The notes below the pieces were generated by a model. The model did no database searches and was not told the DNA's origin. It saw only the letters and a list, made by a program, of their open reading frames with translations. Below, piece after piece: positions 17,001 through 43,295 of a stretch of 64,000 bases of DNA (position 1 is the stretch's first letter; the number at the start of each line of letters is the position of its first letter). Source of the stretch: Sphaerolaimus hirsutus (Eukaryota > Nematoda > Chromadorea > Monhysterida > Sphaerolaimidae). The DNA lies in NCBI GenBank assembly GCA_964036195.1, contig OZ038451.1, positions 4,344,529 through 4,408,528 on the forward strand. Direction: 5' to 3'. Position numbers and translations under genes: made by a program.

Positions 17001-18078
17001 TGCAATAAACAATAACATTTTTGAGAAAGATATGCTTCTCGGAGACAAGTAAATATCAGAAATCCCATCCTCCCAATTTAATAAAATATAAAACTGACAA
17101 GCAAATGCTGAGATATTTGTCCAAGGCTATCACCAATAGATGAAGTATACTCACTGTGCACAGACTGACAATGCTCACATGTATGATCACACACGTTTCA
17201 AAGTTCACTGGTAGAAACATTACTTCCTGTACAAAATGGTAAATTTGTCAGTGTGATCAAGTTTTTGTGTTATTTGGAGTACCTAGACAAAAAAAAACGG
17301 TTTTTCACGAAGTATCGTAGGATTCAGTAAATATAAAACTGATGCGAAGGTGAATTGTATAGAACGAGTGCAAAATTGCACTTGCCTCAGGCGGGAATCG
17401 AACCCACACCACTCGTATTGAACATGAGCGCCCTAACCGCTAGACTACAGTGGTGGCCGGGCTCTAGTAGTCACAATAAGGGACTGAATAATGCGACGGC
17501 CATGCCCCTAGCAGTATTTTCATCAGCACTGTAATTGACGGACAGAAGAAACAAGCTCATAAATCAGGTAGGGACGGCCACAGGTTTTTTTACTTTTTTT
17601 TTGAAAAACAACGTTTTTTCATAAAAATTATTTTGGCAGTAATTACCATGTATAAAGCTGTCCCATGGCTCCACATCCATTCTATGGCTATACATACATA
17701 GTTATATAACATTACAAAGTACTGCTATTTGTCTGATATAAATACTTGTAAAATATATGTTGACTTGACACATAACCATATATTTGAGAGGTTTTTAGTA
17801 AAACCTTGTTTTTAAATGGGGTGGTTCAAAACATTTTTTCCATCCCTACATAAACACCTTCAAACCAACATTCAACAAAATGACAGGGATAGCCAACAGG
17901 CCCACCAGAAAGTCGCACATTGCCAATGACGCAATGTATCCATTTGTTATTGTCCTTATAGTTGAATGCCTGCAATACGCCATGATCACGCATAGATTGG
18001 ATACAACAGCTGCGAAAGCCAAAAGAGTCTCCACGGAAAAGTAGAGAACTTGAAGCCCACTGGTGAATATGCTGTCAC
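14019..18078 (-). CDS. Adenosine-receptor-like class A GPCR, copy A (8 exons)
   Basis: Minus-strand exons: 17858-18078 (TM1-TM2), 17099-17226 (TM3), 16531-16667 (TM4), 16150-16333 (TM5), 15699-15819 (TM6), 15023-15127 (TM7), 14481-14605 and 14019-14193 (C-tail). All phases agree and give about 397 codons to a TGA. Landmarks are a Cys at the start of TM3, DKY in place of DRY, FGVCWYP in TM6 and NPLIY in TM7, followed by SPSLRQALPCC, a helix-8-like stretch with possible palmitoyl cysteines. CEF before TM5 and the TM6-TM7 sequence resemble adenosine receptors, but ligand is an inference. The start codon lies in an unseen exon upstream. The stop codon overlaps the edge of the element ending at 14020, so the last residues are uncertain. 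A TAGTGATG relic lies in the TM4-TM5 intron. Confidence 0.8.
14733..14990. mobile_element. CACACTAGTTGAC inverted-repeat element
   Basis: The ends CACACACTAGTTGACGGCTG and CAACTGGTGTGTG are imperfect inverted repeats, with GTTGACA and CTGTCAAC words inside. It lies in a GPCR intron and is present in both duplicated copies, so it predates the duplication. Confidence 0.6.
14865..14908. repeat. 36-bp palindrome inserted with 4-bp duplication
   Basis: Positions 14869-14904 have ends TGTAGTATTTGATT and AATCAAATACTACA around an 8-nt loop. CATT flanks it on both sides. Copy B reads straight through (AAGTGCATTGGAAGG), so this is a precise insertion. Confidence 0.7.
16444..16515. mobile_element. TAGTGATG relic in a GPCR intron
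   Basis: TAGTGATGTAAAAAACGCCAG at the left and short GGCGCCA words follow. The right end is lost near the TM4 exon donor at 16530. Confidence 0.5.
17384..17454 (-). tRNA. tRNA-like sequence, probable pseudogene, anticodon position TCA
   Basis: On the minus strand an A box (TAGTCTAGCGG) and B box (GGTTCGATTCC) are correctly spaced. A T stem GTGGG/CCCGC and an anticodon stem with one A-C mismatch can form. The seven-nucleotide loop GTTCAAT places TCA at the anticodon, which would read UGA. The acceptor strands (ACCACTG and CTGAGGC) pair badly, so a decayed copy or a SINE head is more likely than a working tRNA. It lies in the TM2-TM3 intron of GPCR copy A. Confidence 0.45.
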
Positions 18079-19319: not shown

Positions 19320-19703
19320 CTCAGAGAAGGTGTCAGGAAAGTTGGGACTAGAAGTGGGTTGTGTTTTCTGCAAAAATTTACTAATTGTATAGTGGCATAT
19401 ACTAATTCTTTACATGTAGTTATATACTTATTAAATACTAATTGTATACAATTAGGTAGGTTTCTAGGTATATGATTGCATCCATACATGCTGTAAAATG
19501 TACCAGTCACCTGTATAACAACAGAACCAAATCATTTGAAACTTCAATTAACCATTAAAATGGTGTTGCACAAGCTCCTACAGTTAGCTACATATTTAGG
19601 TGGGGAATCTATCTTTTTTATATAAATGCACTCACTCTTATTATCAGTGTTGGCAAAGTCAGTTGATTTCAAAGATAGAATTGCATTTACTGTCGAAAAG
19701 TAA

Positions 19704-20067
19704 TACCATATATCCTCGAAATACCCCCCCCCCCGCCCCTGAATTAACCCCCACCTCGAAATACCCCCATCATGAATGATGTACATCATGTGTACAATGT
19801 ACATGATGTGTTTATTGGGATAAATACTCATCGCAGCTATACATAGATTAGTTTGTAAAGATATCTATGTTTGTATGTTCTAATACGTCCCGTTTGGTCA
19901 CGTTCATTCCCAGTATTGGGTATGTAAACGCCCATTCTTTACTACGATATCTACGAAACTTTCTGGCAAAATAACGACCCCCCTCGAATAAGCCCCCTCG
20001 AAATACCCTCTCAAAATTTACACTATGATAAATAAAACCCTTGGGGGTATTTCGAGGAAGTACGGTA
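19704..20067. mobile_element. TACCGTATT element (CTCGAAATA word), mutated left end
   Basis: The left end is TACCATATATCCTCGAAATA and the right end TATTTCGAGGAAGTACGGTA. Internal ATGATGTACATCATG words recur in other copies at 41.3, 42.4, 51.3 and 58.4 kb. Confidence 0.7.
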
Positions 20068-20341
20068 TATTTACTAGATTCGGTATTACATCAAACTGAT
20101 TTACTCAATTTTTTGGCACAATTAGAGGGGACCTCTTTTTGAGGGATTTACACAATTGTTTTCGCCACATTTTGCGAGCACTCAACCAACATCAAACAAT
20201 GTCTCAATTCATTTTCTCAAATTGTATTGTAACAACATGGTGACAACATGGTACCTCTACTGATGCATTCTGAAAAAAAGAAAAATTTCTGGGAAAATTG
20301 ACTTCCTGGTTATTCTTCCAAATCGACTGTGAAAGCTGACT

Positions 20342-23300
20342 GTGAAACTCTTGGTTCGTTTTTTGTGTATCGGCATATGCCTAACAGCCTTGCCGTTATA
20401 TCCACACAATGTGGATCTGGACCCAGTGCACAATAAGCACGTAAGCCTCGAAGATAACTTCTTGGCAAGGGTCCAAAAAAGTGGGGTAGCTAGCCGCATT
20501 AAGGCTACGCACCGGCCTAACAATAATTGGATACATCTGTACTGTACTGACAATGTTAGACAATATCTATATGTCAGCACAACAGTCGGTTGTGAGTACA
20601 ATAATCTCACACAAGCAACAATATGTGCTGGCATGTATGATTACAAAAGACAAAACTATACAATTATAAAACTTACAATAACAACATTGAACAATACATA
20701 CATAGAAGATGAATATGCGAAACGCAGTCGGGGGATTTTCCGGAAAAATACTGCCAAAGAACAAGTGTTTACATACGTTATTAATAAAAAAGAAAAATCG
20801 ATATTTTCGACGAGTCGCGTCGACGGGCACTGCGGCATCGGTGATCGACTAGAAATGGTGGGATATGGGACTATTTTAATAAAGTTTTATATTTGTATAT
20901 CAGGAAATATAACTTATGCTAATACGTATGGGTGTTCGAAGCATAACAACATCTATGTTGTTCTTAAAAGTGATGTGACCTGTCCTAATGCTACAAAAAC
21001 AAATATTCTTGTCTTAACCCGTAACATATATACTAATCAATCAAAAACTATACAGGAACGGGATGGGACACCGATATCAGCGGCGAGTCGCACACAAGCG
21101 CGCAAAGCCAAAGATGCGGCGTCTTTGAAATTAGTTGCCGGAAGTGCAAAACGGGATTCGCAAAAGGCTAAGAACCGAAAGGCGGGGACTTTGTCCGAAA
21201 GTGCGGTTGAAGGGGGCACATATTCTTTGGGTATGACTTTGGACCGCCAAAATTCTGAGCAGGGGGGAATTAGCAGATCTGGAACGTTGCCAAGTCAACT
21301 TTGTGGTAAGTGGGAATTAAATAGATGGTTCTTTGACGCACACAGCGATGAAACATATTGTACACACACAAAAGACATTCGTATATGGCATCTATTTGGG
21401 GGTATAATGGCACGTATAACATATACGTCTGGTATACATACGGTTAAAAACATTAAATATAGAATCCCTTTATTTGCAGACGCAAATCTTGCGACGGAAG
21501 AACCGGATGGCTGCGCTACCCCGACGCTGGCTTTAGTTAGCGATGTGCAAATTTCTGCGGGCGGTGTTACTGACAGCGTCGCCCAAACTTCGCCTGTGCC
21601 AAACCTTGGGGTCGGATTCGACCCAGAAGAAGTAATAGCAACGTACGCGAGCAGTGGCGTGGTCGAAATGGACAACGGTGTACAGATAAGTCCGGACACA
21701 ACCAACTGTCGTACCGTGAGGGACTTAGCGGACGACTTAAGTGAGTCGGGGGTATATTTCATTGAACATTTTATTGGATTCCGGACGATGCATACTACAT
21801 TAAGTGAATTAAGAAAAATCTGTTCTATCCCTATCTGTATGCAAAAGCACACTACGGATCAGAATGTCTCCCTATATACGGCAAAAATATTTATGATAAA
21901 TCTAAAACTATACAATTTTTTCCGGTTGTACGACATAAATTGGCTACGCGCCATATTTTTGCAAATGGACCATATATCTATTGAAAATAACATTAAAACG
22001 TATCTCTCCGTAGACGTGTTGAATGTCACGCCAATTCTGGACGTCGAAAGCGTCACGTGCATGGCGGGGGCTGGGAAACTCGTAGGAGACACCCACTTAC
22101 ACCCGTACGAATACGCCTTGGCTATGCAGCGCAAAATGGAGGAAAACCCCACGGAAACACCAAATGCCTCCGAAGTAGGGCAGCTCTGTGCGTTGGTAAA
22201 GTTGCTAGAAGAAAATCACCAGAAGACCTGCGAATTTATGAAACGGGTGGGTTTAAAAGAAATGCATAATTTATTCTTTAGGTTTGCATATAATATAAAA
22301 TGGGACTTGATTGTTATGTTATCAAATGTAAAACAAAATTTAACACAGTTGGAATTTCTTATATTGCCTGATAACTCTAGCATCTGGGCAAACGTTAATA
22401 ACTTAACAACTAATCATTATGATGCTAACTTTTTTTGTTATTTACCTCAGCTGGAAGTGGCCTACGCTCAGTCGTGCGGCCACCTTGACAAACGCATCGA
22501 CGAATTGATGCTGCAAATTTCACGGCTGGAGGTGGACAAAAGCGCTCTGGAAAAACGAGTGGACGGCACGATCAAGGTATTTGCGTTTGAGTGTGCTCGC
22601 TTACTTATATTACTAAAAACTCGTGAAAAGGAGAAAATGTTTAATATGGAAAATTGCACCTATTCTGAAACTTTTTGGGAATTACATTTTGGTGTCACAA
22701 TAATCAATGTATCGAATAACTTGTTTATACATTCAACAAGATTCTGTTTGCTACGTCTAACTTATACAAATATGTCAATCTTGCAGAATATGAGCGCGCA
22801 AGACTCGACGGTTGGCGATTGCAAGCGCCGTTTGCTGGCCTTGGAAATAAGCCAAAAAACTCCGACAGCTACCACGCCACCGGTTTTCGATCTGGCCAGC
22901 GACGAAACGCCTAAAGGACCAAGCTATAAGCGCCGCTTGACTGACAACATTCAGAACCAAGGAAAAGTTGCGAAAATGGCTGTGCAGCCTGGCCAGGTAA
23001 AGTTGGGTATGGGGATGTGCCCTAATTTTGGTTTGAGTCAACCTGTAGACACTGCATTGTCTGCTTTTGTTGGCGAAAATGTTTTTAATAGATTACCTGT
23101 ACATGGTTGGGATTGTTTCATAAGACAATGTGGAAATAGGGTGATCAACGATAATGACATTACGATTAGAATTAGAAACGAGTGTGATAACCATCATTAT
23201 GGTATATTCTTAGAAAAAAATAGTATGTTACACATATTGGGACATTTAACATCTCACAACGCATTTACTACATTTCAGTGCACTATCCCGCCAACACCTG

Positions 23301-26300
23301 CACCCGGTCAGATGGCGAACACAAAATCGGCGCCCCAGGACGACAGCGACATCGTGATATCGCTCACTGACCCGTCCGACCCGTTCGGCGGATATTTTGC
23401 CTGGCGCGTTAAACTGGACGGCATAAAGTTCGACTGCATTTTGACCGCTATGATTTATGTACGTTTCGATATGGACACTATTTCGATTTCACCGTTTAAA
23501 TATGAAAAGATTATCAAACTTTTCTGTAAATGTATGATACATTTTGAACATATGAGAACGTTGAATTTTCTACATTATCATACCAAAATAGATATTATCC
23601 AGTGGATATGGAGACTTGATATTAACATGCGAGACTACAAATTGAAACTGTATTATACCCTTACACTACCTCAGGCGGAGGCAAAATCGACCACGACGCA
23701 CACGTTGACAAGCATGGCCACGAACCTGCACCAACTCTATGCCAAGCTGGCGCGCGGCAAGGACTTTGACCCGGCCTTCCACGAGTTCCAACGTGGAGCG
23801 CGCCGTATTTGGGGCTTGGTCCGCAAACACGTCATGGACCACTCCTTGGACGTTGCCAACAGTTGGTTCAAATCAGACAGCGGGCGCGAAACGGAACCGT
23901 TTGGGTTGTACCCATCTTTGGAGGCCGCAAAGGAAACGGTTGCCTATGAAACGCTCAAGGCCATTATACAGAACGCCGTGGATTGCAACACTGCATTCCG
24001 GTGGGTGCCTACATCATACATCAATAAGATAGCTCATTTTTGGGTTTCAGAGAAAATTGTTATTAAAATAGTAAATATCAATAATTTTACACAAATACCT
24101 AACACCAAAAAGTTGAAATCACTGAAATTTTTGGTACAAAAGATGCAATATCGGATTGAAATAATAGCTTTATGTTACGCACACAGACAACTGTTGTGGT
24201 CCTCCGGGCAGAAAAAAGTTGACAGCGCATACGTGAAGACAAACCGACAAATTCGATGCGCTGGCGAAATCCCGGCTAGCGGTTGGCGCGGTGCGCTGAT
24301 GTGCGGCGCGAACAAAGGGCGCTATGAGGTAGTTAACTATATTTTTGATACTGTAGTAAGATATGGTCTTGAAATCAAAGAAAATCATTACTTTGAACAA
24401 AATCCCATTTTAACTAAAATGTTTGCGGTATATACAACAAAATGGTTGAACAATAGATTCCATTTATACGTAAGATACAAATGTCATATCAACTGCACCA
24501 AAATCTCTCCCTTACAGTGTGCGCTGCCGACCAAGGATGGGGCCTATTATATGGCCCCTTTTATGAACCTCTACGGGGAGGCATTAATGGAGGTTCGCGC
24601 CAAAATTTCAAAAGAAATGGCCTTTTCGCGTCGCGCTTCCAATGGCGAATTAGTGCCAATCGAAGATGGCGAAATGTTCCTCCAATACGACTCGGAGGGA
24701 CATTTCGATGGAATGGACAGGAAAAAGGTGTATGCGAAATTGCAAGAGAAGTTGCTGGCACCGGAATCCTATAAGGCAGAGGTATGGACTAGTTTCTACT
24801 TTTCCATTAAGAGAGCATCTCTAGACAACTGCCATTACTTCAATCTCAATATTATACTGGGCATACCGGAAATTTATTCTGTGTTAAAATGTAACTGGAA
24901 ATATTTGCCCGTAGCGTTTATGAGCAAATATACATTGTTGTCTAACGAGACTGCTAGCTATAATAAACGCAATACAATTGATAGGTTGCATACAAAAGTG
25001 AGAATAACTCATACATCATGTTCAAATTTTTTGTGGATGTCAATGAAATTGATGTCCAGTGACACACACACAATGTTTTCGCAGTTGTCTACAAATGCTC
25101 TCTCATATGTTAGTAAGATAAGGAAGCAATGCGCGTGTGAGATATACATAAGTGAATTTTTTATTGATCTAAATATACCTTCCGAGAAAAAATCTATGGA
25201 GTATTGGTATTTACCAATGTTGTCTAATGACGCACAAGATATAAATAAATTGGGTATAAGGAACATTAAGAATGTATTGTACAGGAATGGCTCCCGGACA
25301 TTATGCAATCTTACACTGTCTATTGATACTCCCTCGTATAGATATGTAGTAATTTACGGTACACTCAAATTATATTTTCCTCATACTGGAATTTCAATAA
25401 AATATACACTGGAGAAATTGTCTAGTGATACTCTTTCAATACCTATGTCTTATCTACAGGCGCGTCGCATTGCGGCGCTTCGCAACGGGTGGCAAAACAC
25501 CGAACAGCAACCGCCGGTCCAACAAGATACCCAAGTCACGCAGCCGAGCCAAAATGTGCAACGTGGCCGCGGTTATTCTGGATACAGGGGGCGCCAGCCG
25601 TACAACGCGCGTGGGCGCGCCAGGGGGCAATTTTTGGCTCAACGCGGGAGTTTCGCCGGTTTGTCCGCTTGGGTACAACTGTCTGTAAATATGCGCACGA
25701 AGTTGTACGGTTTAAATGCATTTTACATGTCAGAGAACTTTAATTACGACCGAATATTGGGACATAAAAATCATATTTGTAACAAAATAACTCTGTTACT
25801 TATTTTTTACTATAACTCGACAATCGCTACACAAAACATAGGCCGCGGCATCGGACCGAACATACAAGGCCCGCGCACGGCTTACGACCTGACGCAAGAC
25901 GTGCTACAATTCGAACCCGAGCCGCTAACCGAGGCCCGTATGGGAGTCGAGCTGGGACAGGCGTCGACTGGAGCTATTTCCCAAGGTAGCATTATAGATA
26001 ATATTTATATCGTCTTTCGGTGTAACAACTTGGTTAAATATAACTCTATTTGTGTTCTGTTAACAAACTCTCTCACTTCCACAGAAGATGGAATGTTCAT
26101 AACTGTTGACTTACAACACATGACAAATGCACAAAATTTACAAATACACATAAAGATTTACAAATGCACAAAATCGACATTGTCACTTATAGGAAGCTCG
26201 AGCAGCGCAGCGGCCAACGTGGGCGGCGTCAATGCGCAACAACTGTCGAATATCCTGGCGCAACAACAAACTCAACAACGCCAGCAGCTTGTGAATGAAG

Positions 26301-29300
26301 ACATCGTGTCCGACGACGACGACTTCGATAACATGCCAAGTGGGTATAAACTTTTACTTTTTGAGTTTGGACTGCGTCACGACTCAAATTTTGGAATGGG
26401 ATTACATGGGGGGAAAAAAAAATTACAAAGCATGTTTGTTATGACATTCAACATTCACATTGTCGCTCACATCTCACCACACTCTATGAAAAAGCGTATA
26501 CACTCAGATGCCGTTACGGCGACTATTGCGACGGCTGCACGCGCAGGAGACAACAGCTACAGTGGTGTTGCCCAGGTGAGCTGTATAAGCTGCTCGGGAA
26601 TAAACGCTAGGTGTATCCATAAAATAAGGTCCAAAATGGTGAAAAAACTCTTTTCTAAACAGGCTCGCACGCGTGACCGCGAGTTGTCAAGATCGATACA
26701 TTGTCGCCAGCTGCTATTATCCCACCTGGAAAAACAAAACGCCGCAAAATGTGCCAAGTCACTGGGAAATTTTTTGCAATCACACGCGTACTACCCGGAA
26801 GACACCATGATTAGGGATAAGGCGTTTGGTTCAAAATGTCATGCTGTCAACGGCATCGTGCGACTTCTCAATACGGGGATCGATATGGGCCCGCAATGTG
26901 GCTTTCGCCCCTCCGACCATACCCCTGCGACGAATCTGAAAATTGTGTTGCCCACCGAAACAATGTCCGACCCATATGCCTATTTTTACACTGTGCTAAT
27001 TATTGGTGATTCTACAAGCAGCTCGTTATACAACATGTTGTCTAGGGACTGTGCCAGTGCCCAAGTGCCCGTGACAGTACACGGCAGCAAGGGCCTGTTT
27101 TCTGGGCGCCGCATGAGCACTTTTTGCGCGGGTATTCACGATGTTAAATTCACCACTGTATATGACATGGTTATTTTACGCTCTGTTTTGAATGCGTGTG
27201 ATGCGGAATTATTTGATGCGTGCCTGTTTGATGCAAGGGGTGTGGATTTGTTTTTTCTGGATGGTGTAAAAAAAAATGTTGAATTTATTCAATGCAATAA
27301 ATCGCTAAAGCTGCAACCGTGTGGCAAATTTGCATTGTGTCTGGTAGGCCCTACTATGCCCACGTGTTTTTCGAATAATTGGTCGATCGCTAAAGTGCAA
27401 GAAACATATGCTTTTTTGTATACTCTCGAAAGTGCTCTCGTTCACTTAGCTGATTGTGACCTAGATAATGTGATCGTAATACGGGTGTTCGATTACTTGG
27501 AGAGAAATTTTGCGGCGATGGGATTTGATAGCAAATTTGATGCATTTCTGGCCCTGCTTACTAAGGATGGGTTGCACACGGCCGAAAATGGCAACCGCCT
27601 GTTGTGCTTCCTGATTAGAAAAGAGTTACTTTTAATGTCAGTTTTTGAGCATATTTGGAGTACACACCCACTATTTTGGCATAATTATAATATACGTAAA
27701 TGCCCAGGCGCGCGGAGGCGGAGCGCAAGGACGAAATGCAGGGGGCACAGGTCAAATGAGGGGCGGCCAATCGCCGCTGACAAGTCATTTTCAACGGCTG
27801 CGCAAATGAATAAATGTGTGTTTTATTGTAGGCACGTTGCCTTAGGGTGGGAAAATGATGACATTTTAGTGTTATTTTTTGGCACTTTATCAATTAATTT
27901 ACGTTGTATGCCCGTGTGTTACACTGTGCATTTCTCAAAATATAATACCTGGACAATCCCCAGATTTCATCACAACAGAACTCTTACAATGAATACAATG
28001 CTGTGCAACCACGGAAATACAGCGTATCAATTCTCAAATACAACTTCATGGCATTTGCTTTACTATCCTTCATACCTTGGCACACGGCCATACGTACGTT
28101 TTTCGTTTAAGTTTTTCGTTAATATTCGCTATCAAAAAAAATTCGATATCAATCATACATTCAATGCAATGGGATATCATACTTTCTGCAGGGGGAAATC
28201 TGTGATACGTGTTAAAAAATACCCACTCTTGAATTTTTTAAAAAAAAAACAAGTTGTAAACAAAACTTTTTTTAAAAAAACCTCTTTTTTGACACTCTGC
28301 AAGGGGGTGTCCATATCGAACATCTGTAACTGTCTAATCCGAAGAAAGATTGTGTTTTTTAAAAAAAATTCTGTTTTAAAAAAAATCGATTTTAAAAAAA
28401 GTTCTTTTTTGAAAAAAACTTTTTTTTTGGAAACTATGATATCCAGACCAAGCCTCTTTGAGTTTATAAAATTGCTCTTGTTCACTTCGTACACATGCAT
28501 AATCGATGAAGAATTGCATTACAGTTATTTTGGTACGATAATACGCGAACATTCCTCATGTAAATGTGATGGACATTTCTCAAGTAAATACTGCGTGTAT
28601 GAGTGTGCTAATATGTGCATTTTGTATAAGGAATACAGGACTTACATATGTTGTTTAGAGAGTACGAAGTGTCACACACACATAAATGATAAATCTCTAA
28701 AAAAATTGACTATACCCGATAACATCTCGGTTATCAGCAAGGTGACATTTTGTAAGTCTCGTGCATGCATCTCTAGAATTGCATATTGTTCCTATGCGCA
28801 AATATTGGTTCGATATTTTGTAACCGGCTACCTAGGCTCTTTAGGGGGTGGTCCAATATTAACGGACAACTTGTGTTGTATGCTTTTTAATGATTGGGCG
28901 GTGAAAAAATGCACGGGGGTGCAGATAATTTTGAATGGTACGGGTGTGCAGGTTACTCTGAGGCAGATTCGGAGTGAAAATATGTCGCGAGTTTTACACT
29001 TTTATCATTTTTTTGTTTGTTATATACTGAACGACAATAGCGATATATTGTCGTGGTTAAGTATCACCATGTCCTGGATAGACAAAATAGGACATTTTAT
29101 AATCATGATACAGCTACTGCGGAGAATGAATGGACAAAGAAAAAACCAGCTGGAAAACCAGAAAATGACAATATGGCTATTATCGTTCACATTCATGTTT
29201 ACAAAAATAAATTGTGCAACAGAATTTGAACACATCGTTGGAAATGATGAGTATCTATACTCTATACCCTTACTAATACTATACCAAAATGCTAGATACT

Positions 29301-32300
29301 TGAGGTGGAAAAAAACTGAATTACTGGCTACAATTCTAAATACCGGGTGTGACGTAATGTGTTTTGTGGAGACACACTTTAAATGCCTAACGGAAGCTAT
29401 CCACGTTCCTGGCTATATAGGGATACACAAATTCAAGACGGACACGCAAGCCGGTGGTATCTCGGTGTACATAAAGCGTTCTATAAAATTCACTAACATT
29501 GATTACGTTAATGATAACAACATCCTGGGCATCCTTATTCATACAATCAAAACCAAAATAAATATTACAACGTGCTATCTCATAAACAACTCTAAGGCAA
29601 AAAAATCCAAAAATGTGACAGAATTGAACGATAAAATTTTAGCTGAAATAGGCGCAAAAATGTCAAATTTGGATGAAAAAGGATACTGTTCCTTGATAGT
29701 GGGGGATTTTAATGGCCACATAGGCAATGATGAATTAGGGCTTATAGGTAATAATGAAATGGCGAATGAAAATGGCAAACTAATCAGAGATTGGCAGGCT
29801 AAATATGGTCCCTACCTACTAAATAGAGATTTTAATGAATTATGGACCTATGAAAGAAGCAATGCAAAATCAGCAATTGACCTATGCTTTACAAATAGAA
29901 AACTTCAAAACTTCTCAGGCTGGATAGACAGCACTGGTAAACTGTGCCCACTAACCTCAGACCACCATGCTATTTTTGTGAAAATCATTAACACTCCCAA
30001 ACTTCAAAAGAAAACAGAACATGCCAAAATAAAAAAACTAAATAAATCTGAACTTCTAACAATGAATCAGAAACTTAGTGGATTAGAACCTAAATCTTAT
30101 CATGAAATTCTTTCTACCATACATGAAACATGTAATGAAATTAATGATGAAAATCTGTATGTACAAGAGGGGAAAATGCAGAAGTGCCCAAAAGTAAAGG
30201 CTTCAATTATAAAATTACATAGAAATATTGCAAAAGTAAGAAGAAAAATACAAATAAATGGTAAAACTGAAATACTAAGAAAGGAACTTAGGCTATACCA
30301 ACACAAACTAAACAGGGAAAAAAAGGAACTGAATAGGAAACACAAGGACATAGAACTGGAAAAAATACATGATAATAAATCAAGGGAACTAAATACAGTA
30401 TACAAGCACATAAATAAAAACTGGCAGGGTACAAGGCAAGTCACAGAAATGACAGACAAAGACGGAAATATATTAGAAAACAATGAGAAAATGAATGCAG
30501 AAATGACCAGAGTCTGGGGGAACATTATGACTGCTAATCCTGGTTCACCAACCTATTATCCACCTGAATCTAAAACACTGCCTCAAGATGCTCAAGATGA
30601 GCTAATAGAAGATTTTACAATAGAAGAACTGAGCAAGGCTTTAAAACAGCTACAAAACAATAAATCCCCTGGGACAACAGGAATACACCACGAGACACTC
30701 AAAATGCTGCCACTAACCTTCCAAACGGCACTTCTAGACATGTACAATAAATGGTTAAATGGGGTTGATATTCCAATAGAAGCCAAAATTTGCAAAATGG
30801 TCCTACTACATAAAAAAGGGGACAAATCTAAAATGGACAATTACAGAACGCTGGGAATTTCATGCAACATAAAAAAGGTATACATGATAATGTTAAATAA
30901 TAGATTAATTAAGTTGGCAGAAGATGAAGACATCTTTACTGAGCTACAAGGAGGATTCCGCCCAAACAGACGTACCTGTGACAATGTGCTTGTTCTCAAC
31001 ACATGTTATAACTATGCAACAGCAAATGGGAACGACTTCTTTACCTGCTTTGTGGATGCTGTTAAAGCTTTTGATAGGGTGAACCGTGACAAATTATGGA
31101 AAAAACTTTTGGACATAGGCATACCGACTAAAATGGTGACAGCTATCTCACAAGCCTATACAAATATAAAAGTCAACATGACTTATGGGGATTACATGAG
31201 TGATGACCTGGGCTACCCCATAGGAGTAGCCCAGGGGTGTGCCCTAAGTCCAACTCTCTACGCACTGTACATGCATGACCTTGCCACTGAATTGATGTCT
31301 ACAGGACAAGGGGCTAAGCTAGGGAAGGGACAGCTGAAACTGCCAGCTCTATTTTTCGCTGATGACATTGTACTTATGGCAAACACAGCATCTGAACTTC
31401 AAGACTTGATGATAAGGTTCACCAATTGGTCTTGGAAGTGGAACATTACTATCAATCAAAATAAATCACACATACTCCGGTGGGGCAAGAAACAACTAGG
31501 AAGGTCCTGGCCACTTGGATATGACAAGAATAAGGAAATAGGGAAAATAGCTGAATGCAATGAAATAAAATATCTAGGAGTAACAATCTGTGATAATAAA
31601 GATCCCTTCAAAACACACATAAAAAATTGTGTTACCAAAATGCTAAAACATAGCTCACTAGCTATACTTTCGTCAAATAACACAACTAAACCAATGTTGT
31701 ATGCAAAAATGACTTATAAATCCTACATAGAACCAGCTAGTATGTATGGATTAGAAGTCACTGGGGCTGATAAAGATAACCTCAAAAAGATGGACAAGAT
31801 CTATATGCAGACCATGAAAAGAGCTGTCCACCTTCCTAACTCAACAAGCACTGCAAGCCTATTAATAGATCTTGGAGGAGAGCTACCATCAGACAAGTAC
31901 CACCAAATGACAATTACTTTTACAAATTATGTCAACAAGCTAGATGATAGCCGGCTAGTTAAAAGAGCGCTCTCAATAGATAGGTCATTATGTAGCAGTA
32001 CACGGCTTATGCACCACTCCACGATCAGTAATAGATACAAGCACTGTGTAGAAGAAATTAACATACCATTGATCCATGCTCCAATACTAACAAAAACTAA
32101 CATAAAATTGGCAACTAACCAAAATAGACAACAAATATCGGTTTTGAAGATGAAAACTCAAAATGTTGCAACAATTAGATCTGATATAGGCCAGCAGGCC
32201 CACCCACTTCACTTACATTATAACCAATTAACGTGGTTGGCTGCAAGGCACAACTCAATTAGACAATATGGTCGTAGAGGTAGGAAAATATGTACTTTAT

Positions 32301-32518
32301 GTAGTACAGACCACGTTAAAATTCCGTGCACAGTTAATCATCTGCTCTATCTATGTCCCGGCTTAGATTTCAAGCGTACTGAAATATCAAATAGAAAATG
32401 TGTATCCCAATGTAGCCAGCAAGGTGATTGGCTTATGTACAGAACATGTGCGCAGCATCGGAAAATGATCAACGACATGTTACAATATGGCATCAAGCAT
32501 TTTATGAACCTAGACTAA
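20342..32518 (+). CDS. Retroelement: one 12.2-kb stop-free frame running through exons and introns into an EN-RT
   Basis: No stop occurs in this frame from 20333 (after TGA at 20330-20332) to TAA at 32516-32518. The first codon of the open stretch is not ATG; the first in-frame ATG is 20633. GC-richer coding blocks alternate with AT-rich GT-AG introns: 20858-21055, 21306-21479, 21741-22013, 22247-22450, 22577-22786, 22997-23278, 23459-23674, 24001-24186, 24329-24517, 24782-25459, 25659-25841, 25986-26192, 26340-26507 and 26576-26662. All are multiples of three (3255 nt in total) and none has a stop in the exon frame, although other frames do. Downstream come a long open linker and an endonuclease-reverse transcriptase. 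It is probably one non-LTR element whose unspliced RNA must stay translatable. A host gene with a LINE fused at its end is the alternative. The donor choice for introns 11 and 13 was partly guided by frame. Confidence 0.75.
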   Translation: MKLLVRFLCIGICLTALPLYPHNVDLDPVHNKHVSLEDNFLARVQKSGVASRIKATHRPNNNWIHLYCTDNVRQYLYVSTTVGCEYNNLTQATICAGMYDYKRQNYTIIKLTITTLNNTYIEDEYAKRSRGIFRKNTAKEQVFTYVINKKEKSIFSTSRVDGHCGIGDRLEMVGYGTILIKFYICISGNITYANTYGCSKHNNIYVVLKSDVTCPNATKTNILVLTRNIYTNQSKTIQERDGTPISAASRTQARKAKDAASLKLVAGSAKRDSQKAKNRKAGTLSESAVEGGTYSLGMTLDRQNSEQGGISRSGTLPSQLCGKWELNRWFFDAHSDETYCTHTKDIRIWHLFGGIMARITYTSGIHTVKNIKYRIPLFADANLATEEPDGCATPTLALVSDVQISAGGVTDSVAQTSPVPNLGVGFDPEEVIATYASSGVVEMDNGVQISPDTTNCRTVRDLADDLSESGVYFIEHFIGFRTMHTTLSELRKICSIPICMQKHTTDQNVSLYTAKIFMINLKLYNFFRLYDINWLRAIFLQMDHISIENNIKTYLSVDVLNVTPILDVESVTCMAGAGKLVGDTHLHPYEYALAMQRKMEENPTETPNASEVGQLCALVKLLEENHQKTCEFMKRVGLKEMHNLFFRFAYNIKWDLIVMLSNVKQNLTQLEFLILPDNSSIWANVNNLTTNHYDANFFCYLPQLEVAYAQSCGHLDKRIDELMLQISRLEVDKSALEKRVDGTIKVFAFECARLLILLKTREKEKMFNMENCTYSETFWELHFGVTIINVSNNLFIHSTRFCLLRLTYTNMSILQNMSAQDSTVGDCKRRLLALEISQKTPTATTPPVFDLASDETPKGPSYKRRLTDNIQNQGKVAKMAVQPGQVKLGMGMCPNFGLSQPVDTALSAFVGENVFNRLPVHGWDCFIRQCGNRVINDNDITIRIRNECDNHHYGIFLEKNSMLHILGHLTSHNAFTTFQCTIPPTPAPGQMANTKSAPQDDSDIVISLTDPSDPFGGYFAWRVKLDGIKFDCILTAMIYVRFDMDTISISPFKYEKIIKLFCKCMIHFEHMRTLNFLHYHTKIDIIQWIWRLDINMRDYKLKLYYTLTLPQAEAKSTTTHTLTSMATNLHQLYAKLARGKDFDPAFHEFQRGARRIWGLVRKHVMDHSLDVANSWFKSDSGRETEPFGLYPSLEAAKETVAYETLKAIIQNAVDCNTAFRWVPTSYINKIAHFWVSEKIVIKIVNINNFTQIPNTKKLKSLKFLVQKMQYRIEIIALCYAHRQLLWSSGQKKVDSAYVKTNRQIRCAGEIPASGWRGALMCGANKGRYEVVNYIFDTVVRYGLEIKENHYFEQNPILTKMFAVYTTKWLNNRFHLYVRYKCHINCTKISPLQCALPTKDGAYYMAPFMNLYGEALMEVRAKISKEMAFSRRASNGELVPIEDGEMFLQYDSEGHFDGMDRKKVYAKLQEKLLAPESYKAEVWTSFYFSIKRASLDNCHYFNLNIILGIPEIYSVLKCNWKYLPVAFMSKYTLLSNETASYNKRNTIDRLHTKVRITHTSCSNFLWMSMKLMSSDTHTMFSQLSTNALSYVSKIRKQCACEIYISEFFIDLNIPSEKKSMEYWYLPMLSNDAQDINKLGIRNIKNVLYRNGSRTLCNLTLSIDTPSYRYVVIYGTLKLYFPHTGISIKYTLEKLSSDTLSIPMSYLQARRIAALRNGWQNTEQQPPVQQDTQVTQPSQNVQRGRGYSGYRGRQPYNARGRARGQFLAQRGSFAGLSAWVQLSVNMRTKLYGLNAFYMSENFNYDRILGHKNHICNKITLLLIFYYNSTIATQNIGRGIGPNIQGPRTAYDLTQDVLQFEPEPLTEARMGVELGQASTGAISQGSIIDNIYIVFRCNNLVKYNSICVLLTNSLTSTEDGMFITVDLQHMTNAQNLQIHIKIYKCTKSTLSLIGSSSSAAANVGGVNAQQLSNILAQQQTQQRQQLVNEDIVSDDDDFDNMPSGYKLLLFEFGLRHDSNFGMGLHGGKKKLQSMFVMTFNIHIVAHISPHSMKKRIHSDAVTATIATAARAGDNSYSGVAQVSCISCSGINARCIHKIRSKMVKKLFSKQARTRDRELSRSIHCRQLLLSHLEKQNAAKCAKSLGNFLQSHAYYPEDTMIRDKAFGSKCHAVNGIVRLLNTGIDMGPQCGFRPSDHTPATNLKIVLPTETMSDPYAYFYTVLIIGDSTSSSLYNMLSRDCASAQVPVTVHGSKGLFSGRRMSTFCAGIHDVKFTTVYDMVILRSVLNACDAELFDACLFDARGVDLFFLDGVKKNVEFIQCNKSLKLQPCGKFALCLVGPTMPTCFSNNWSIAKVQETYAFLYTLESALVHLADCDLDNVIVIRVFDYLERNFAAMGFDSKFDAFLALLTKDGLHTAENGNRLLCFLIRKELLLMSVFEHIWSTHPLFWHNYNIRKCPGARRRSARTKCRGHRSNEGRPIAADKSFSTAAQMNKCVFYCRHVALGWENDDILVLFFGTLSINLRCMPVCYTVHFSKYNTWTIPRFHHNRTLTMNTMLCNHGNTAYQFSNTTSWHLLYYPSYLGTRPYVRFSFKFFVNIRYQKKFDINHTFNAMGYHTFCRGKSVIRVKKYPLLNFLKKKQVVNKTFFKKTSFLTLCKGVSISNICNCLIRRKIVFFKKNSVLKKIDFKKSSFLKKTFFLETMISRPSLFEFIKLLLFTSYTCIIDEELHYSYFGTIIREHSSCKCDGHFSSKYCVYECANMCILYKEYRTYICCLESTKCHTHINDKSLKKLTIPDNISVISKVTFCKSRACISRIAYCSYAQILVRYFVTGYLGSLGGGPILTDNLCCMLFNDWAVKKCTGVQIILNGTGVQVTLRQIRSENMSRVLHFYHFFVCYILNDNSDILSWLSITMSWIDKIGHFIIMIQLLRRMNGQRKNQLENQKMTIWLLSFTFMFTKINCATEFEHIVGNDEYLYSIPLLILYQNARYLRWKKTELLATILNTGCDVMCFVETHFKCLTEAIHVPGYIGIHKFKTDTQAGGISVYIKRSIKFTNIDYVNDNNILGILIHTIKTKINITTCYLINNSKAKKSKNVTELNDKILAEIGAKMSNLDEKGYCSLIVGDFNGHIGNDELGLIGNNEMANENGKLIRDWQAKYGPYLLNRDFNELWTYERSNAKSAIDLCFTNRKLQNFSGWIDSTGKLCPLTSDHHAIFVKIINTPKLQKKTEHAKIKKLNKSELLTMNQKLSGLEPKSYHEILSTIHETCNEINDENLYVQEGKMQKCPKVKASIIKLHRNIAKVRRKIQINGKTEILRKELRLYQHKLNREKKELNRKHKDIELEKIHDNKSRELNTVYKHINKNWQGTRQVTEMTDKDGNILENNEKMNAEMTRVWGNIMTANPGSPTYYPPESKTLPQDAQDELIEDFTIEELSKALKQLQNNKSPGTTGIHHETLKMLPLTFQTALLDMYNKWLNGVDIPIEAKICKMVLLHKKGDKSKMDNYRTLGISCNIKKVYMIMLNNRLIKLAEDEDIFTELQGGFRPNRRTCDNVLVLNTCYNYATANGNDFFTCFVDAVKAFDRVNRDKLWKKLLDIGIPTKMVTAISQAYTNIKVNMTYGDYMSDDLGYPIGVAQGCALSPTLYALYMHDLATELMSTGQGAKLGKGQLKLPALFFADDIVLMANTASELQDLMIRFTNWSWKWNITINQNKSHILRWGKKQLGRSWPLGYDKNKEIGKIAECNEIKYLGVTICDNKDPFKTHIKNCVTKMLKHSSLAILSSNNTTKPMLYAKMTYKSYIEPASMYGLEVTGADKDNLKKMDKIYMQTMKRAVHLPNSTSTASLLIDLGGELPSDKYHQMTITFTNYVNKLDDSRLVKRALSIDRSLCSSTRLMHHSTISNRYKHCVEEINIPLIHAPILTKTNIKLATNQNRQQISVLKMKTQNVATIRSDIGQQAHPLHLHYNQLTWLAARHNSIRQYGRRGRKICTLCSTDHVKIPCTVNHLLYLCPGLDFKRTEISNRKCVSQCSQQGDWLMYRTCAQHRKMINDMLQYGIKHFMNLD
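20633..27809 (+). CDS. Spliced ORF1 of the retroelement (Gag-like, coiled coil, RG-rich, SGNH hydrolase)
   Basis: Removing the fourteen in-frame introns and a 67-nt intron at 27641-27707 gives one frame from ATG 20633 to TGA 27807-27809, about 1284 residues. The 5' end is uncertain: another intron near 20592-20708 is possible. In order it shows a basic region, a coiled-coil block (exon 22451-22576), a block with many aromatic residues (23675-24781), an RG-rich segment (GRGYSGYRGR, exon 25460-25658), a Gln-rich stretch with four Asp (26193-26339) and an SGNH-type hydrolase (26663 on). The last exon is again RG-rich (GGAQGRNAGG). RNA binding and particle formation are guesses from composition. 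Confidence 0.5.
26663..27640 (+). CDS. SGNH/GDSL-type hydrolase domain of ORF1
   Basis: This is the longest uninterrupted exon of ORF1. LIIGDSTSSSLY holds the block I GDS serine, and TKDGLHTAENGNRLL near the end has the block V Asp-x-x-His. Both are classical for SGNH esterases, and esterase-type ORF1 proteins are known in CR1-like LINEs. The domain is about 220 residues, roughly the usual size. Substrate is unknown. Confidence 0.65.
27810..29287 (+). other. Stop-free AT-rich linker between ORF1 and ORF2
   Basis: About 490 codons stay open in the ORF2 frame although composition is intron-like and the amino acids are rich in Ile, Cys, His, Lys and Phe. At 28217-28440 runs of T and A alternate and encode Lys/Phe-rich stretches. 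It resembles no protein. It may be a long retained intron or a read-through spacer. Candidate acceptors lie near 29222, before the endonuclease. Confidence 0.6.
29288..32518 (+). CDS. ORF2: APE-like endonuclease and non-LTR reverse transcriptase
   Basis: The endonuclease begins at NARYLRWKKTELLA, with FVETHF, IVGDFNGH and TSDHHAIF supplying the usual Asn, Glu, Asp/Asn and His residues. The reverse transcriptase shows FVDAVKAFDRV (motif A), GVAQGCALSP (motif B) and FADD at 31355-31366 (motif C, with Phe in place of the common Tyr). A C-terminal Cys-Cys-His-Cys knuckle (CTLC then NHLLYLC) follows. All catalytic residues appear present, so the copy may be young. The clade is Jockey/CR1-like in a broad sense. 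No separate start codon with an upstream stop exists, because the frame is continuous with ORF1. Confidence 0.9.
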   Translation, partial: NARYLRWKKTELLATILNTGCDVMCFVETHFKCLTEAIHVPGYIGIHKFKTDTQAGGISVYIKRSIKFTNIDYVNDNNILGILIHTIKTKINITTCYLINNSKAKKSKNVTELNDKILAEIGAKMSNLDEKGYCSLIVGDFNGHIGNDELGLIGNNEMANENGKLIRDWQAKYGPYLLNRDFNELWTYERSNAKSAIDLCFTNRKLQNFSGWIDSTGKLCPLTSDHHAIFVKIINTPKLQKKTEHAKIKKLNKSELLTMNQKLSGLEPKSYHEILSTIHETCNEINDENLYVQEGKMQKCPKVKASIIKLHRNIAKVRRKIQINGKTEILRKELRLYQHKLNREKKELNRKHKDIELEKIHDNKSRELNTVYKHINKNWQGTRQVTEMTDKDGNILENNEKMNAEMTRVWGNIMTANPGSPTYYPPESKTLPQDAQDELIEDFTIEELSKALKQLQNNKSPGTTGIHHETLKMLPLTFQTALLDMYNKWLNGVDIPIEAKICKMVLLHKKGDKSKMDNYRTLGISCNIKKVYMIMLNNRLIKLAEDEDIFTELQGGFRPNRRTCDNVLVLNTCYNYATANGNDFFTCFVDAVKAFDRVNRDKLWKKLLDIGIPTKMVTAISQAYTNIKVNMTYGDYMSDDLGYPIGVAQGCALSPTLYALYMHDLATELMSTGQGAKLGKGQLKLPALFFADDIVLMANTASELQDLMIRFTNWSWKWNITINQNKSHILRWGKKQLGRSWPLGYDKNKEIGKIAECNEIKYLGVTICDNKDPFKTHIKNCVTKMLKHSSLAILSSNNTTKPMLYAKMTYKSYIEPASMYGLEVTGADKDNLKKMDKIYMQTMKRAVHLPNSTSTASLLIDLGGELPSDKYHQMTITFTNYVNKLDDSRLVKRALSIDRSLCSSTRLMHHSTISNRYKHCVEEINIPLIHAPILTKTNIKLATNQNRQQISVLKMKTQNVATIRSDIGQQAHPLHLHYNQLTWLAARHNSIRQYGRRGRKICTLCSTDHVKIPCTVNHLLYLCPGLDFKRTEISNRKCVSQCSQQGDWLMYRTCAQHRKMINDMLQYGIKHFMNLD

Positions 32519-32687
32519 CTATAAAAATATGTATAAATTGCCAGCAACTCACACGCCCATCTGTTCTATAAGTGATGGTCAAAGGCCGGAAACCTTCCCG
32601 GCCACACACTTTTAGGAATGTGAGGGCCAAAAGTGATAGGATAAATGTCAACAAAAAGGGGAATTAAACCTGTGAATTGCTGGCTAC
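32519..32687. other. Probable 3' untranslated end of the retroelement
   Basis: Follows TAA of ORF2. It contains a hairpin AAGGCCGGAAACCTTCCCGGCC near 32580 and GAATTAAACC near 32662. There is no A tail or clear tandem repeat, so the exact 3' end is not fixed. Confidence 0.35.
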
Positions 32688-33038
32688 CTACTTACTAGTC
32701 AGAAAACTGATAGTTAGCGTAAAATCACCCAGCCCGCAGGTCAGTTCAGCGACTGCATATCGACTGATATGATGGTCAAACAGCGGTAGATACACGGTAG
32801 CTGCGGCCTGCGATACATTGCTGCCAACCACGTGGTCGATCTCCATGGGGACTGGCTGTAGATGACTCTGTATGAATGGCAGAGCACACAATGGTTAGAG
32901 GGGTATGGCAGGCTGCAACACTCTTCTTCCCATACCTGTGGCGTGCTGCCAATAATAGGCTGAATGGTTGGATGCTGAATAATATGTGCCGAAATATACA
33001 TCTCGGAAACATCGTTGGTTTTGTGCAACTGTAGCAAC
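32688..33038 (-). CDS. Two exons of an unrecognised minus-strand gene
   Basis: Exon 32936-33038 (acceptor TTACGCAG, donor GTATGG) joins in phase 0 to 32688-32867 (acceptor ATACAG). The second ends in TAG, or may instead use the donor GTAAGT that overlaps it. The reading is GC-richer than its surroundings and encodes PMEIDHVVGSNVSQAAATVY and similar non-repetitive sequence. The family is not recognised and upstream exons were not found. The retroelement ends very close downstream. Confidence 0.5.
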
Positions 33039-33097
33039 CTGCGTAAAAAGTCCCTACATAGCATTTTTGTAAATAGAACCTAACCACAACTTGTCTC

Positions 33098-33677
33098 TAG
33101 GGTGTCAAAAAATTTTTTTACGGAAAACGGAAACGGAAACGGAAAAAAAAAATTCAGCTGCCAGAAAACGGAATGGAAAACGGAAAAAATTGCACTTGGC
33201 AGAAAACGGAAACGGAAACGGAAAAAAATTTCAGCGGCCGGAAAACGGAAAAAAAGGCTGAAAAAACGGAACCGGAAAAATCAAATTTGCACAGAAATGG
33301 AAAAACTTGCTGAAATTTTGCCAGAAAATGGATAAAATTTGCTGAAATTTTGCTGGAAGAGGAAAAAAATTTGCAGTAATTTTGCTGGAAACATAAATTT
33401 TTTTACATCATTGACAATTTGCATGAATTTTTACCAGTTTGGCTGATCAGAAAACAGAAAGTTGAGCCAGAAAAAGGTAAAATGAGGCGGAAAAAATGGA
33501 AAATTGAGGCAGAAAACAGAAAAAAATGCGGAAAAACTGAAAATTTAGCCGGAAAATGGAAAATGAGCCAGAAAAACGGAAACGGAAAAAAAGTTGCCGG
33601 AAAACAGAACGGAAAACGGAAAAAATTGCCTGCGGATAACTGAAATGGAAAACAGAAAACGGAAATTTGACACCCTA
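33098..33677. mobile_element. TAGGGTGTC element (AAACGG word)
   Basis: Inverted ends TAGGGTGTCAAAAAATTT and AAATTTGACACCCTA enclose ACGGAAAACGGAAACGG words and GAAAAAATTTGC spacers. No perfect target duplication is seen. A relic of the right end (GACACCCTA) lies at 3455. Confidence 0.75.
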
Positions 33678-34671
33678 GTAACAACCAGGCGTAATAAATT
33701 TTTAGAAAATGACCACAAAGTTGAATATATATGTGGGTGGAACTGGATTTGTCGTGCTCAAAGCTCGCTGAAATCAGTTGAACAAATGCCTGGTGTTTGC
33801 ATACTAATATTTACAGTTGTGCAATTTACATTTGTGCATATTGATTTAGTTGACAAAAATGTTCAAATGATGTGTCATTCTGCACGTGCATAGTTATCAC
33901 TTATTGAGTAGAACTAGCACACGTAGATATACCAATAACGGTGAAAACTGTTGTTGATTTCTCACTAGGTACACAATTGAAAAAGATTATCATATCAAGG
34001 TGCTATAGCCATGTAAATAAAATAAACAATATACATTATGAAACTTCATGGCCATTTTATATTTCACCAGCAAACCAGCTAGTAAGATAGCTGCTAGAAC
34101 CATGATAATTGTCAACTAGAGCAAACTTTAGCAATGAACAGCTGTAAAACTAAATTATTTTCTTCAAAATTGGTTCAGGTAGGGATTCATTATTTTTGTT
34201 CTACTATTTACAACACTCACTCACTTTTCTATCGACTGTTGACAGATGTTTTTATATTATTTGAGATATTGAGCCTCACATTTACATTGCTTTTTATAAC
34301 AAATTCAGTGTGCTGTGACAATCATTTCCCAATCTCTGCCTTAAATTTATTCATTCCATTCCCAGTTATTGTATCAATTAAACAGGTATTCTTTGTAGCT
34401 AAACTGAAGGGCCTTGGTATTGGACATCACCTATATGTATCTACTACTTTGGCCTTTATAGTGACTTGCTCCAACTAAAACCCCACATAAATTTTTTCCC
34501 CATTTTGTAGCTAGATAAATTTGATGTAGTATTTACAGGGCCAGCAAAATTCACTGTAGTCAACAAATGCAACTTTAGCAATGTTTGTAAGGAATGACAA
34601 CGGTGCCAATTAGTGATGTAAAAAGCGCCAACACTTTAGCAGCACATGCAACACAGCCATATACCGTATTT
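33678..34671. other. No gene recognised
   Basis: AT-rich sequence with a TAGTGATG-type relic at about 34612-34645. An open stretch at 34134-34478 is hydrophobic but has no recognisable motif and is not annotated as a gene. Confidence 0.4.
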
Positions 34672-42210: not shown

Positions 42211-43295
42211 GGTAAAGTCCGGATTGGGACTGCAAACTTTGACTGAAATTTGCCAAGTATCATCTGAAAAATACCGTATTTCCTCAAAATAGCCCCTCCT
42301 TGAATCAACCCCCCGCCTCCCCCCTTGAAATATGCCAGGTGTTTTCGAGCTGAGGAAAAAATTACCCCCCTCGAAATACCCGCGTCTTGAATGATTTACA
42401 TGATGTATTTATTAGGGTCAAATCTCATCGCAGCTATACATACAAACGTAGATAGCTATACAAACTACTCTATGTTCTGATAAGTCCCGTTTGGTGACGT
42501 TTATTACCAGTTTTGGGTATGTAAAAGCCCATTCTTTACTATGACATTTACGAAAATTTCTGGCGAAATAATAACCCCCCTCAAGTAAGCCCCCTCCTCG
42601 AACCCCCCCCCCCTCAAAATTTGTACTCTGAAAAAATAAACCCCCTGGGGTAGGGTGTCAAAAAATTTTTTTACGGAAAACGGAAAACGGAAAGGTAAAA
42701 AATTTTCACTTTACGGAAAACAGAAAACGGAAAGGTAAAAAAAAATTCTGCCGGAAAACGGAAAACGGAAAGGTAAAAAAATTTCACTCAGCGGAAAACG
42801 GAAAACGGAAAGGTAAAAAAAATTTATCAGCCGGAAAACGGAAAACAGAAAAATGAAATGCCGGAAAACGGAAAACGGAAAGCAACATTTTCACGGAATT
42901 GGAAAAAATGAAGTGAAATTTGCACGGAAATGGACAAATTTGCATGCAGGTTTGCCTGTTTGGCTTTGATTGTGGTAGCTGTAGATTCTGCAACTATGCC
43001 AATAACTTCACTTGTAGTTCAAGCTTCACTGAACCAACAAAAAATCATCAAAAGATAGCAAAAATACACTACGACAACAATAAAGTAGGAGTAGACGTGG
43101 GTCAACACGGGGGCCGACAACCCCAAGACACAGTTGGGAGAGCAAGTTTATTGCACAGTGCTGAACTGAACATGCATCACAAAAGGTAACAGGTGGTGTG
43201 CACTTGAAACATAACAATCGCGGGTGTGGTAATAACCCCATCTACACTACTACTCAACTCCTCGGGGGGTAACCAGATTATATGACCTCGGATAA

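Follow-up and report, generated by a model that had tools for sequence, protein, structure and literature searches.

The 64-kb window analysed here (64,000 nucleotides (nt) of contig OZ038451.1 of the nematode Sphaerolaimus hirsutus, positions 4,344,529 to 4,408,528) contains, on its plus strand, a retroelement that is by its domain order of the long interspersed nuclear element (LINE) type, with a first open reading frame (ORF1) followed by an endonuclease-reverse transcriptase (RT) part. A single frame free of stop codons runs through the exons and introns of ORF1 and on to the RT, and we consider below what this frame may mean for the expression of the element. The features of the element are listed first; introns 1 to 13 were placed by window anatomy and comparison with other copies.

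20271..33096, plus strand: LINE-type element; start placed by homology (alignment of a 5' block), 3' part interrupted by an inserted repeat at 33097
20333..32518, plus strand: giant open frame of 4061 codons, taken as the frame of the unspliced RNA (ORF list and stop counts)
20333..20857, plus strand: 5' open stretch, in which the 100 codons following a TGA common to four copies have no in-frame ATG; possible non-AUG start, with CTG at 20336 as a candidate
20858..21055, plus strand: intron, phase 0, 198 nt; the least certain of the introns, placed from the window only
21306..21479, plus strand: intron 1, phase 1, 174 nt
21741..22013, plus strand: intron 2, phase 1, 273 nt
22247..22450, plus strand: intron 3, phase 0, 204 nt
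22577..22786, plus strand: intron 4, phase 0, 210 nt
22997..23278, plus strand: intron 5, phase 0, 282 nt
23459..23674, plus strand: intron 6, phase 0, 216 nt
24001..24186, plus strand: intron 7, phase 2, 186 nt; donor GTGGGT (GTRAGT would be an in-frame stop here)
24329..24517, plus strand: intron 8, phase 0, 189 nt
24782..25459, plus strand: intron 9, phase 0, 678 nt
25659..25841, plus strand: intron 10, phase 1, 183 nt
25986..26192, plus strand: intron 11, phase 1, 207 nt
26340..26507, plus strand: intron 12, phase 1, 168 nt
26576..26662, plus strand: intron 13, phase 0, 87 nt
26663..27640, plus strand: exon 14, which codes for the probable SGNH/GDSL hydrolase part of ORF1 (motifs GDS and DGxH, structure model)
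27641..27707, plus strand: last intron, 67 nt (71 nt with the donor at 27637), not a multiple of three; its splicing would lead to the ORF1 stop
27708..27809, plus strand: exon 15, with two frames, the spliced one giving a conserved ORF1 C-terminus and stop, the unspliced one open towards the RT
27810..29251, plus strand: linker without stops, composition not protein-like (stop and composition statistics)
29312..29965, plus strand: endonuclease/exonuclease/phosphatase (APE-type) domain (Pfam scan, just below the curated cut-offs)
30812..31588, plus strand: reverse transcriptase domain RVT_1 (Pfam scan)

The giant frame was the only stop-to-stop frame of at least 250 codons in the window, and its 4061 codons bear out the 4058-codon stop-free stretch claimed by an initial annotation of this DNA. 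Stops within 20333..32518 numbered 1 (the terminal one) in frame 0, 282 in frame +1 and 318 in frame +2. Fourteen GT-AG introns, recognised by eye and by script, each have a length that is a multiple of three and sum to 3255 nt or 1085 codons, the same figures as the annotation had given. Their GC content is 0.27-0.38, as against 0.45-0.63 in the exons from 21056 onward. The exon frame of these introns held no stop where 75.0 were expected (Markov-1), while the other two frames held 82 and 102; the annotation had put the chance expectation at about 75 and had noted stops in the other frames. Openness extends to both sides of the intron series, with no in-frame stop at 27637-29251 (31.2 expected) or in the 5' stretch 20333-20857 (10.4 expected).

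We also segmented the region without reference to frame, using splice signals and composition, with rotated composition tracks (60 rotations) and the reverse strand as controls. The introns so called were multiples of three in 11 of 13 cases, compared with 322/732 for rotated composition and 4/13 on the reverse strand; a longer region, segmented earlier, had 12/15. The segmentation score was 377.8 versus 257.3 ± 22.6 in the rotations (maximum 296.5), which is a weaker sign than the multiple-of-three count because the reverse strand also reached 303.4. Among six inter-exon intervals of a host gene beside another copy, two were multiples of three, and stops were spread as 17, 21 and 16 over the three frames.

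We searched the host genome (348 Mb, 762 contigs) for further copies. With the RT as query, 15 of 42 scored matches (1339 first-look candidates), the window included, lay in frames of at least 3000 codons; RT identity to the window was 52-54% for the 14 matches besides it, and one of these is interrupted by a TGA. A search with exon 14 found frames of this size around 34 of 123 scored rows, at identities down to 27-32%. Frames around the 150 scored RT-family rows of the genome (3823 candidates) were mostly shorter, though some were not. Two matches of the shorter kind with equal scores, at C3:21887261 and C16:23421047 of the genome (G000), sit in open frames of 4837 codons and maybe represent a further giant-frame retroelement family.

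For 20 copies the 10 kb upstream of the RT was taken, giving 21 copies with the window; 12 had been selected for long frames, two more (L021 and L022) were also long, and L023-L028 were selected by RT similarity. The window exons recurred in order in these copies, with identical ends wherever the match was full. They stood in the RT frame in the long-frame copies and were divided between frames in the frameshifted ones, and the short or variable exons (1, 4, 5 and 10-13) were mostly unrecognised in distant copies. DNA alignment between the window and its nearest relatives was confined mainly to the exons, the 5' block, the short introns flanking exon 14 and the final part of the linker. In a DNA search of the host genome, the window's intron 9 matched nothing but itself.

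Intervals between adjacent recognised exons gave a set of 122 introns, 57 to 1599 nt long, of which 120 kept the frame. Copies with many in-frame intron stops, which would have told against the initial annotation's reading, were not what we found: this set contained 9 in the exon frame and 843 and 883 in the other two, against an expectation of 692.5. Chance as the cause of the openness is ruled out by these counts and by the 0 stops against 75.0 expected in the window. Two frameshifted introns account for eight of the nine stops, L023 intron 8 with six and L026 intron 9 with two. Ascertainment by long frames is countered by L023-L028, which were picked without regard to openness and had 44 of 47 introns open (stops 9/336/349). 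Orthologous introns shared no sequence similarity, apart from those of L023/L026, intron 13 (which is short) and a few segments of at most 60 nt; the copies share ancestry, and p values from the pooled introns are too small for this reason.

The pair L023/L026, which was not picked for openness, allowed the constraint to be measured from substitutions. Divergence between the two copies was 3.1% for exons and 8.4% for introns. The introns contained gaps of 3, 9 and 6 nt as well as one frameshift of 2 nt and one of 1 nt, and exon 14 had a single 1-nt frameshift. With out-of-frame intron tails removed, the exons showed 88 synonymous, 22 nonsynonymous and 0 stop changes (omega 0.09). The introns read in frame showed 69, 182 and 1 with L026 as reference (omega 0.88; 11.4 stops expected) and 65, 186 and 0 with L023 as reference (own stop codon skipped; omega 0.94), while their other two frames gave 12 to 17 stops where 11.2 to 12.2 were expected. 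We thus see directly an avoidance of stops with little or no amino-acid constraint in the introns. The annotation's inference that translation of the unspliced RNA, or its escape from decay, purges in-frame stops is supported both by these changes (1 of 252 a stop) and by the 9 against 843 and 883 stops in the larger set.

As observations on the same pair, L023 and L026 are 94% alike in the ORF1 part, the similarity stops about 390 nt before the RT, and in the RT itself identity to the window is 85% for L023 and 76% for L026; they are perhaps mosaic copies. No shared sequence was found between them in the 328 bp 5' of the element in L026. A second pair, on different contigs (C2 and C3) and with frames of 4407 codons, showed 19 substitutions and 0 gaps over 5000 bp including introns; translation of one of the two gave 0 stops in 5 kb, and 106 and 111 in the other frames. 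No third copy covering the introns of this stretch was found among 62 matches. These near-identical copies would point to mobility with introns, although they may instead reflect a segmental duplication.

The splice sites of the copies follow the same rule. At the base predicted from the window phase, GT was present in 109 of 122 introns and AG in 118 of 122; the donors had G at +5 in 87/109 and T at +6 in 91/109, and the acceptors C at -3 in 109/118. Donors of the form GTRA occurred in 0 of 19 phase-2 introns, as compared with 24/60 in phase 0 and 17/30 in phase 1 (41/90 together; Fisher p 5e-5), all 19 phase-2 introns being intron 7. Acceptors in phase 0 were CAG in all 63 cases; phase 1 had 28 CAG and 8 TAG, and phase 2 had 18 and 1, which makes TAG 0/63 in phase 0 versus 9/55 in phases 1 and 2 (Fisher p 7e-4); the sequences are related, so both p values are too small. 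The splice sites themselves therefore avoid in-frame stops, GTRA in phase 2 and TAG in phase 0.

These patterns could also arise from tolerance of splicing noise, in which splicing is leaky, any partly spliced RNA retaining the last intron can serve to make the RT, and stops and frame changes are purged as every intron sometimes stays in; the translated form would then not have to be fully unspliced RNA. This would explain why intron lengths are multiples of three as well as why stops are missing, and the phase-2 donors are indeed off consensus. However, at most one of about 11 expected stop changes in L023/L026 would demand heavy and even retention of every intron, and the inheritance of introns would require a fully unspliced template regardless. 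We regard it as unlikely, although it is the alternative to be taken most seriously.

The initial annotation was right about 14 open introns with lengths that are multiples of three, and it missed a further, last intron that breaks this rule. That intron was not a multiple of three in any of the 18 copies in which it could be counted (L024, L026 and L028 of the 21 were omitted, with exon 14 broken or only partly matched), and it measured 52 to 76 nt from the exon-compatible donor. Counted from the donor AT/GTNNGT (slash marking the cut), 4 nt upstream, the length was always 2 modulo 3. The acceptor was taken as the one preceding the conserved exon, which was the first candidate in 17 of 18 copies and the second in L018. 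Beyond it, the spliced frame of exon 15 ends after 26-35 codons, and its C-terminus reads [PT][LI][TS]xHFxR in 16 of 18 copies and lies one position off this pattern in L015 and L016. Pairwise differences in exon 15 between the window and three near copies numbered 42, 29 and 82 at positions 1, 2 and 3 of the spliced frame. The unspliced frame, which is the third frame of exon 15, is open over 80 codons in 17 of 18 copies (L027 is frameshifted), and in those 17 the first stop upstream of the RT lies farther off than exon 15. Since the last intron alone is not a multiple of three and exon 15 carries two frames, splicing gives ORF1 its own stop without the RT, while the unspliced frame reaches the RT.

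At window 27635-27643, and at the same site in 17 copies, the last intron begins at a conserved ATGTNNGT, which holds two overlapping donors 4 nt apart; these would yield two different ORF1 ends. A spliced tail in the frame of the donor AT/GTNNGT was considered and dropped, as the tail in the other frame is the conserved one.

With the last intron in place, two further explanations can be weighed. Protein-coding inserts, as an account of the AT-rich stretches, are ruled out by omega near 0.9, the unrelated sequences and the splice-site bases. A variant in which these stretches are not introns and are translated as spacers or inserted peptides of one giant protein agrees with a frame that is open throughout, but it meets the same lack of sequence conservation and the same GT, AG, +5 and -3 bases, and it is the spliced frame of exon 15 that shows conservation; we find this variant scarcely credible. 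Evasion of surveillance is the second explanation. Here the unspliced genomic RNA would be kept open to its 3' end merely to escape nonsense-mediated decay, whatever the product. The giant frame terminates about 0.6 kb ahead of the inserted repeat that interrupts the element, and a stop in an early intron would leave kilobases of 3' untranslated region; moreover, host introns of other species have been described, in the parts of PMC2911113 and PMC4484396 cited here, as being under the opposite constraint, which favours decay on retention. Against this, the last intron separates ORF1 from the RT by frame in 18/18 copies, so that the open frame is also the in-frame path from ORF1 to the RT. As a sole cause, surveillance seems to us improbable.

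We are instead fairly confident that ORF1 is made from spliced RNA and the RT, in cis, from unspliced genomic RNA whose introns are translated along with its exons. This reading builds on the observed anatomy, the conservation of frame and absence of stops, the near neutrality of the intron amino acids and the frame switch at the last intron. The element would then belong to a large LINE-type family with ORF1 split by at least 13 spliceosomal introns at fixed places and with none apparent in the endonuclease-RT part. If the sites are spliced in the cell, as this reading supposes, the spliced RNA would be read as ORF1 and terminate at the stop in the exon beyond the last intron. Unspliced RNA, which we infer to be exported and translated from its 5' end, would be read through all introns, cross the last one in a different frame and reach the RT. 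It would be the only sense RNA able to transmit the introns to a new copy. The RT would act in cis on its own RNA (cis preference is a property of LINEs), with ORF1 supplied in trans from spliced RNA. A stop in an intron would sever the RT from its own template RNA, and selection would therefore purge stops and frame changes and little else. Introns 1-13 would be kept open because ribosomes bound for the RT pass through them, or because of surveillance.

Nonetheless, several observations weigh against this reading and call for caution. The first in-frame ATG after the shared TGA lies at codon 100, 102, 184 and 102 in four copies and none is conserved, and the frame of L026 has a stop at codon 132. 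Intron 12 of L023 has one in-frame stop with no frameshift to explain it. The protein-frame donor of the last intron, ATGTNN/GT, is weak, and the better-looking donor 4 nt upstream leads to the other frame, which also stops early. Lastly, in the amino-acid composition test the introns reached a chi-square of 18.7 versus 38.1 for the RT (19 degrees of freedom); because even a real RT reaches only this value, the test is weak and may leave room for slight constraint on intron peptides.

The assignment of the element rests on its RT and endonuclease. The RVT_1 match had E 2e-30; Exo_endo_phos_2 (5e-6) and Exo_endo_phos (3e-5) each fell slightly under the curated cut-off and were placed N-terminal to the RT, as expected, and the Pfam scan gave no GIY-YIG endonuclease in addition to this APE-type one. 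Among solved structures the RT was nearest to R2 and LINE-1 ORF2p, and the protein database held 34 relatives at 20-29% identity; one scan each of viral_contigs and genome_contigs gave none. For ORF1, no relatives were found in the protein database at E 0.001, either with the giant ORF1 part (1401 candidates scored) or with spliced ORF1 (7997). The GDS and DGxH motifs of exon 14 were invariant across 18 aligned copies. The best structure model had a predicted local distance difference test score of 80.5 (53.7-72.5 in the remaining four), and its best PDB match was a putative hydrolase (E 1.8e-4, template-modelling scores 0.38/0.56). Acetyl esterases and GDSL hydrolases followed, all at E >1e-3 and with two designed scaffolds interspersed; a sequence profile of exon 14 found nothing convincing in the PDB. 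ORF1 thus probably carries an SGNH/GDSL hydrolase (esterase) fold with predicted catalytic Ser and His.

The 5' end of the element lies at about 20271-20294, where homology with L023, L024 and L026 starts. A block around the frame start (window 20300-20660) is kept in four copies, with invariant stretches flanking the TGA and no conserved ATG; it maybe represents a promoter or a non-AUG start. There was no Rfam match at E up to 1 within 19500-33700. Terminal repeats were looked for by comparing 700 bp upstream with 2.5 kb downstream in four copies: L013 and L017 had nothing above 12-bp matches, and in L009 a 41-bp stretch matched directly and one of 87 bp in inverted orientation. A direct repeat of 269 bp, 99.6% identical, stands on either side of L023 (L023 about 1053-1321; L032 about 1291-1559), and its 5' copy falls outside the stretch shared with L026; this may be a target-site duplication of unusual length or terminal repeats that are not shared. 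In the window, the 3' part of the element is interrupted at 33097-33678 by a tandem-repeat-rich insertion with inverted ends (CTAGGGTGTCAAA / TTTGACACCCTAG), and similar sequence is also present at 42651-44568. Outside the element, ARAGORN predicted a tRNA-SeC at 17383-17454 on the minus strand.

The 3' end of the element also holds two exons that belong to a gene on the opposite strand.

32691..32864, minus strand: antisense gene, exon c
32963..33046, minus strand: antisense gene, exon b

This spliced gene (window 32691-33046, minus; L032 281-885, minus) is kept in L002/L032 and L005 and partly in the window. In L032 it has two introns, of 64 nt (3 in-frame stops) and 67 nt (none), and they show no multiple-of-three rule. 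A possibly related antisense exon was seen by eye behind L017 (L031, minus, 346-595). The antisense gene lends something to the idea that the element moves as DNA or via antisense RNA and keeps its introns for free, the open introns serving ORF1 isoforms, and a proposal for Penelope elements that retain introns also invokes antisense templates (in the part of PMC3846280 cited here). On the other hand, an APE-type endonuclease and an RT are encoded by the element itself, and the idea would not explain why sequence that is otherwise nearly neutral lacks stops; we consider such movement very improbable.

We found no LINE of this design in full-text literature, a search that covered open-licence PMC papers, with most subscription papers and preprints outside its scope. 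The element resembles LINEs with an ORF1 esterase in its probable SGNH/GDSL hydrolase and its endonuclease-RT order, and ORF1 proteins of the CR1/L2 type carry esterase domains. It differs from LINEs in its at least 13 conserved spliceosomal ORF1 introns, the single frame through them and the predicted splicing switch between ORF1 and RT.

By analogy, the nearest known plan is that of the Ty1/Copia element EVD of Arabidopsis, for which the cited part of PMC8892269 describes a spliced short GAG RNA and an unspliced GAG-POL RNA. As in EVD, spliced RNA would give a structural protein with its own end and unspliced RNA the polymerase, a frame logic present here in 18/18 copies and known from their sequence. 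Unlike this LINE-type element with at least 14 introns that are nearly free save for stops and frame, EVD is a long terminal repeat (LTR) element for which PMC8892269, as far as cited, describes one intron. Exitrons are likewise spliceable, stop-free stretches enriched in multiples of three, and as described in the sections of PMC4484396 used here they are coding sequence in which synonymous changes are preferred, with GC above that of introns. The introns of our element are AT-rich and have omega of 0.88-0.94 versus 0.09 in exons, unlike the coding constraint of exitrons. Penelope-like elements share a retroelement mechanism that permits intron retention, but they carry GIY-YIG where an APE-type domain is found here, and the cited part of PMC3846280 describes no stop-free intron rule for them. 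GT-AG borders, a pyrimidine-rich 3' end and AT-richness are also those of ordinary eukaryotic introns. In other species, however, stop-less introns with lengths in multiples of three are counterselected (Jaillon et al., as stated in the cited part of PMC2911113), whereas they are the rule in this element family.

With guarded confidence, we favour extending our reading to a whole LINE-type clade that uses introns as a coding strategy. The last intron would serve as a frame switch and the others as translated spacers selected for openness and frame alone, and only the unspliced RNA would make the RT that copies it. If this is true, splicing would divide one transcript into messenger (ORF1) and genome (RT and template), and translation of a fully unspliced RNA would be a necessary step in a retroelement life cycle. 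It would also account for a LINE-type element that retains introns which splicing should remove in each round, and would give a control of structural protein versus polymerase resembling that of LTR elements. The family is a natural example of purifying selection directed at nonsense and at little else, in more than 100 introns that are otherwise nearly neutral and apparently spliced out, and it would be a useful system for testing ideas on nuclear export, cis preference and the surveillance of intron retention.

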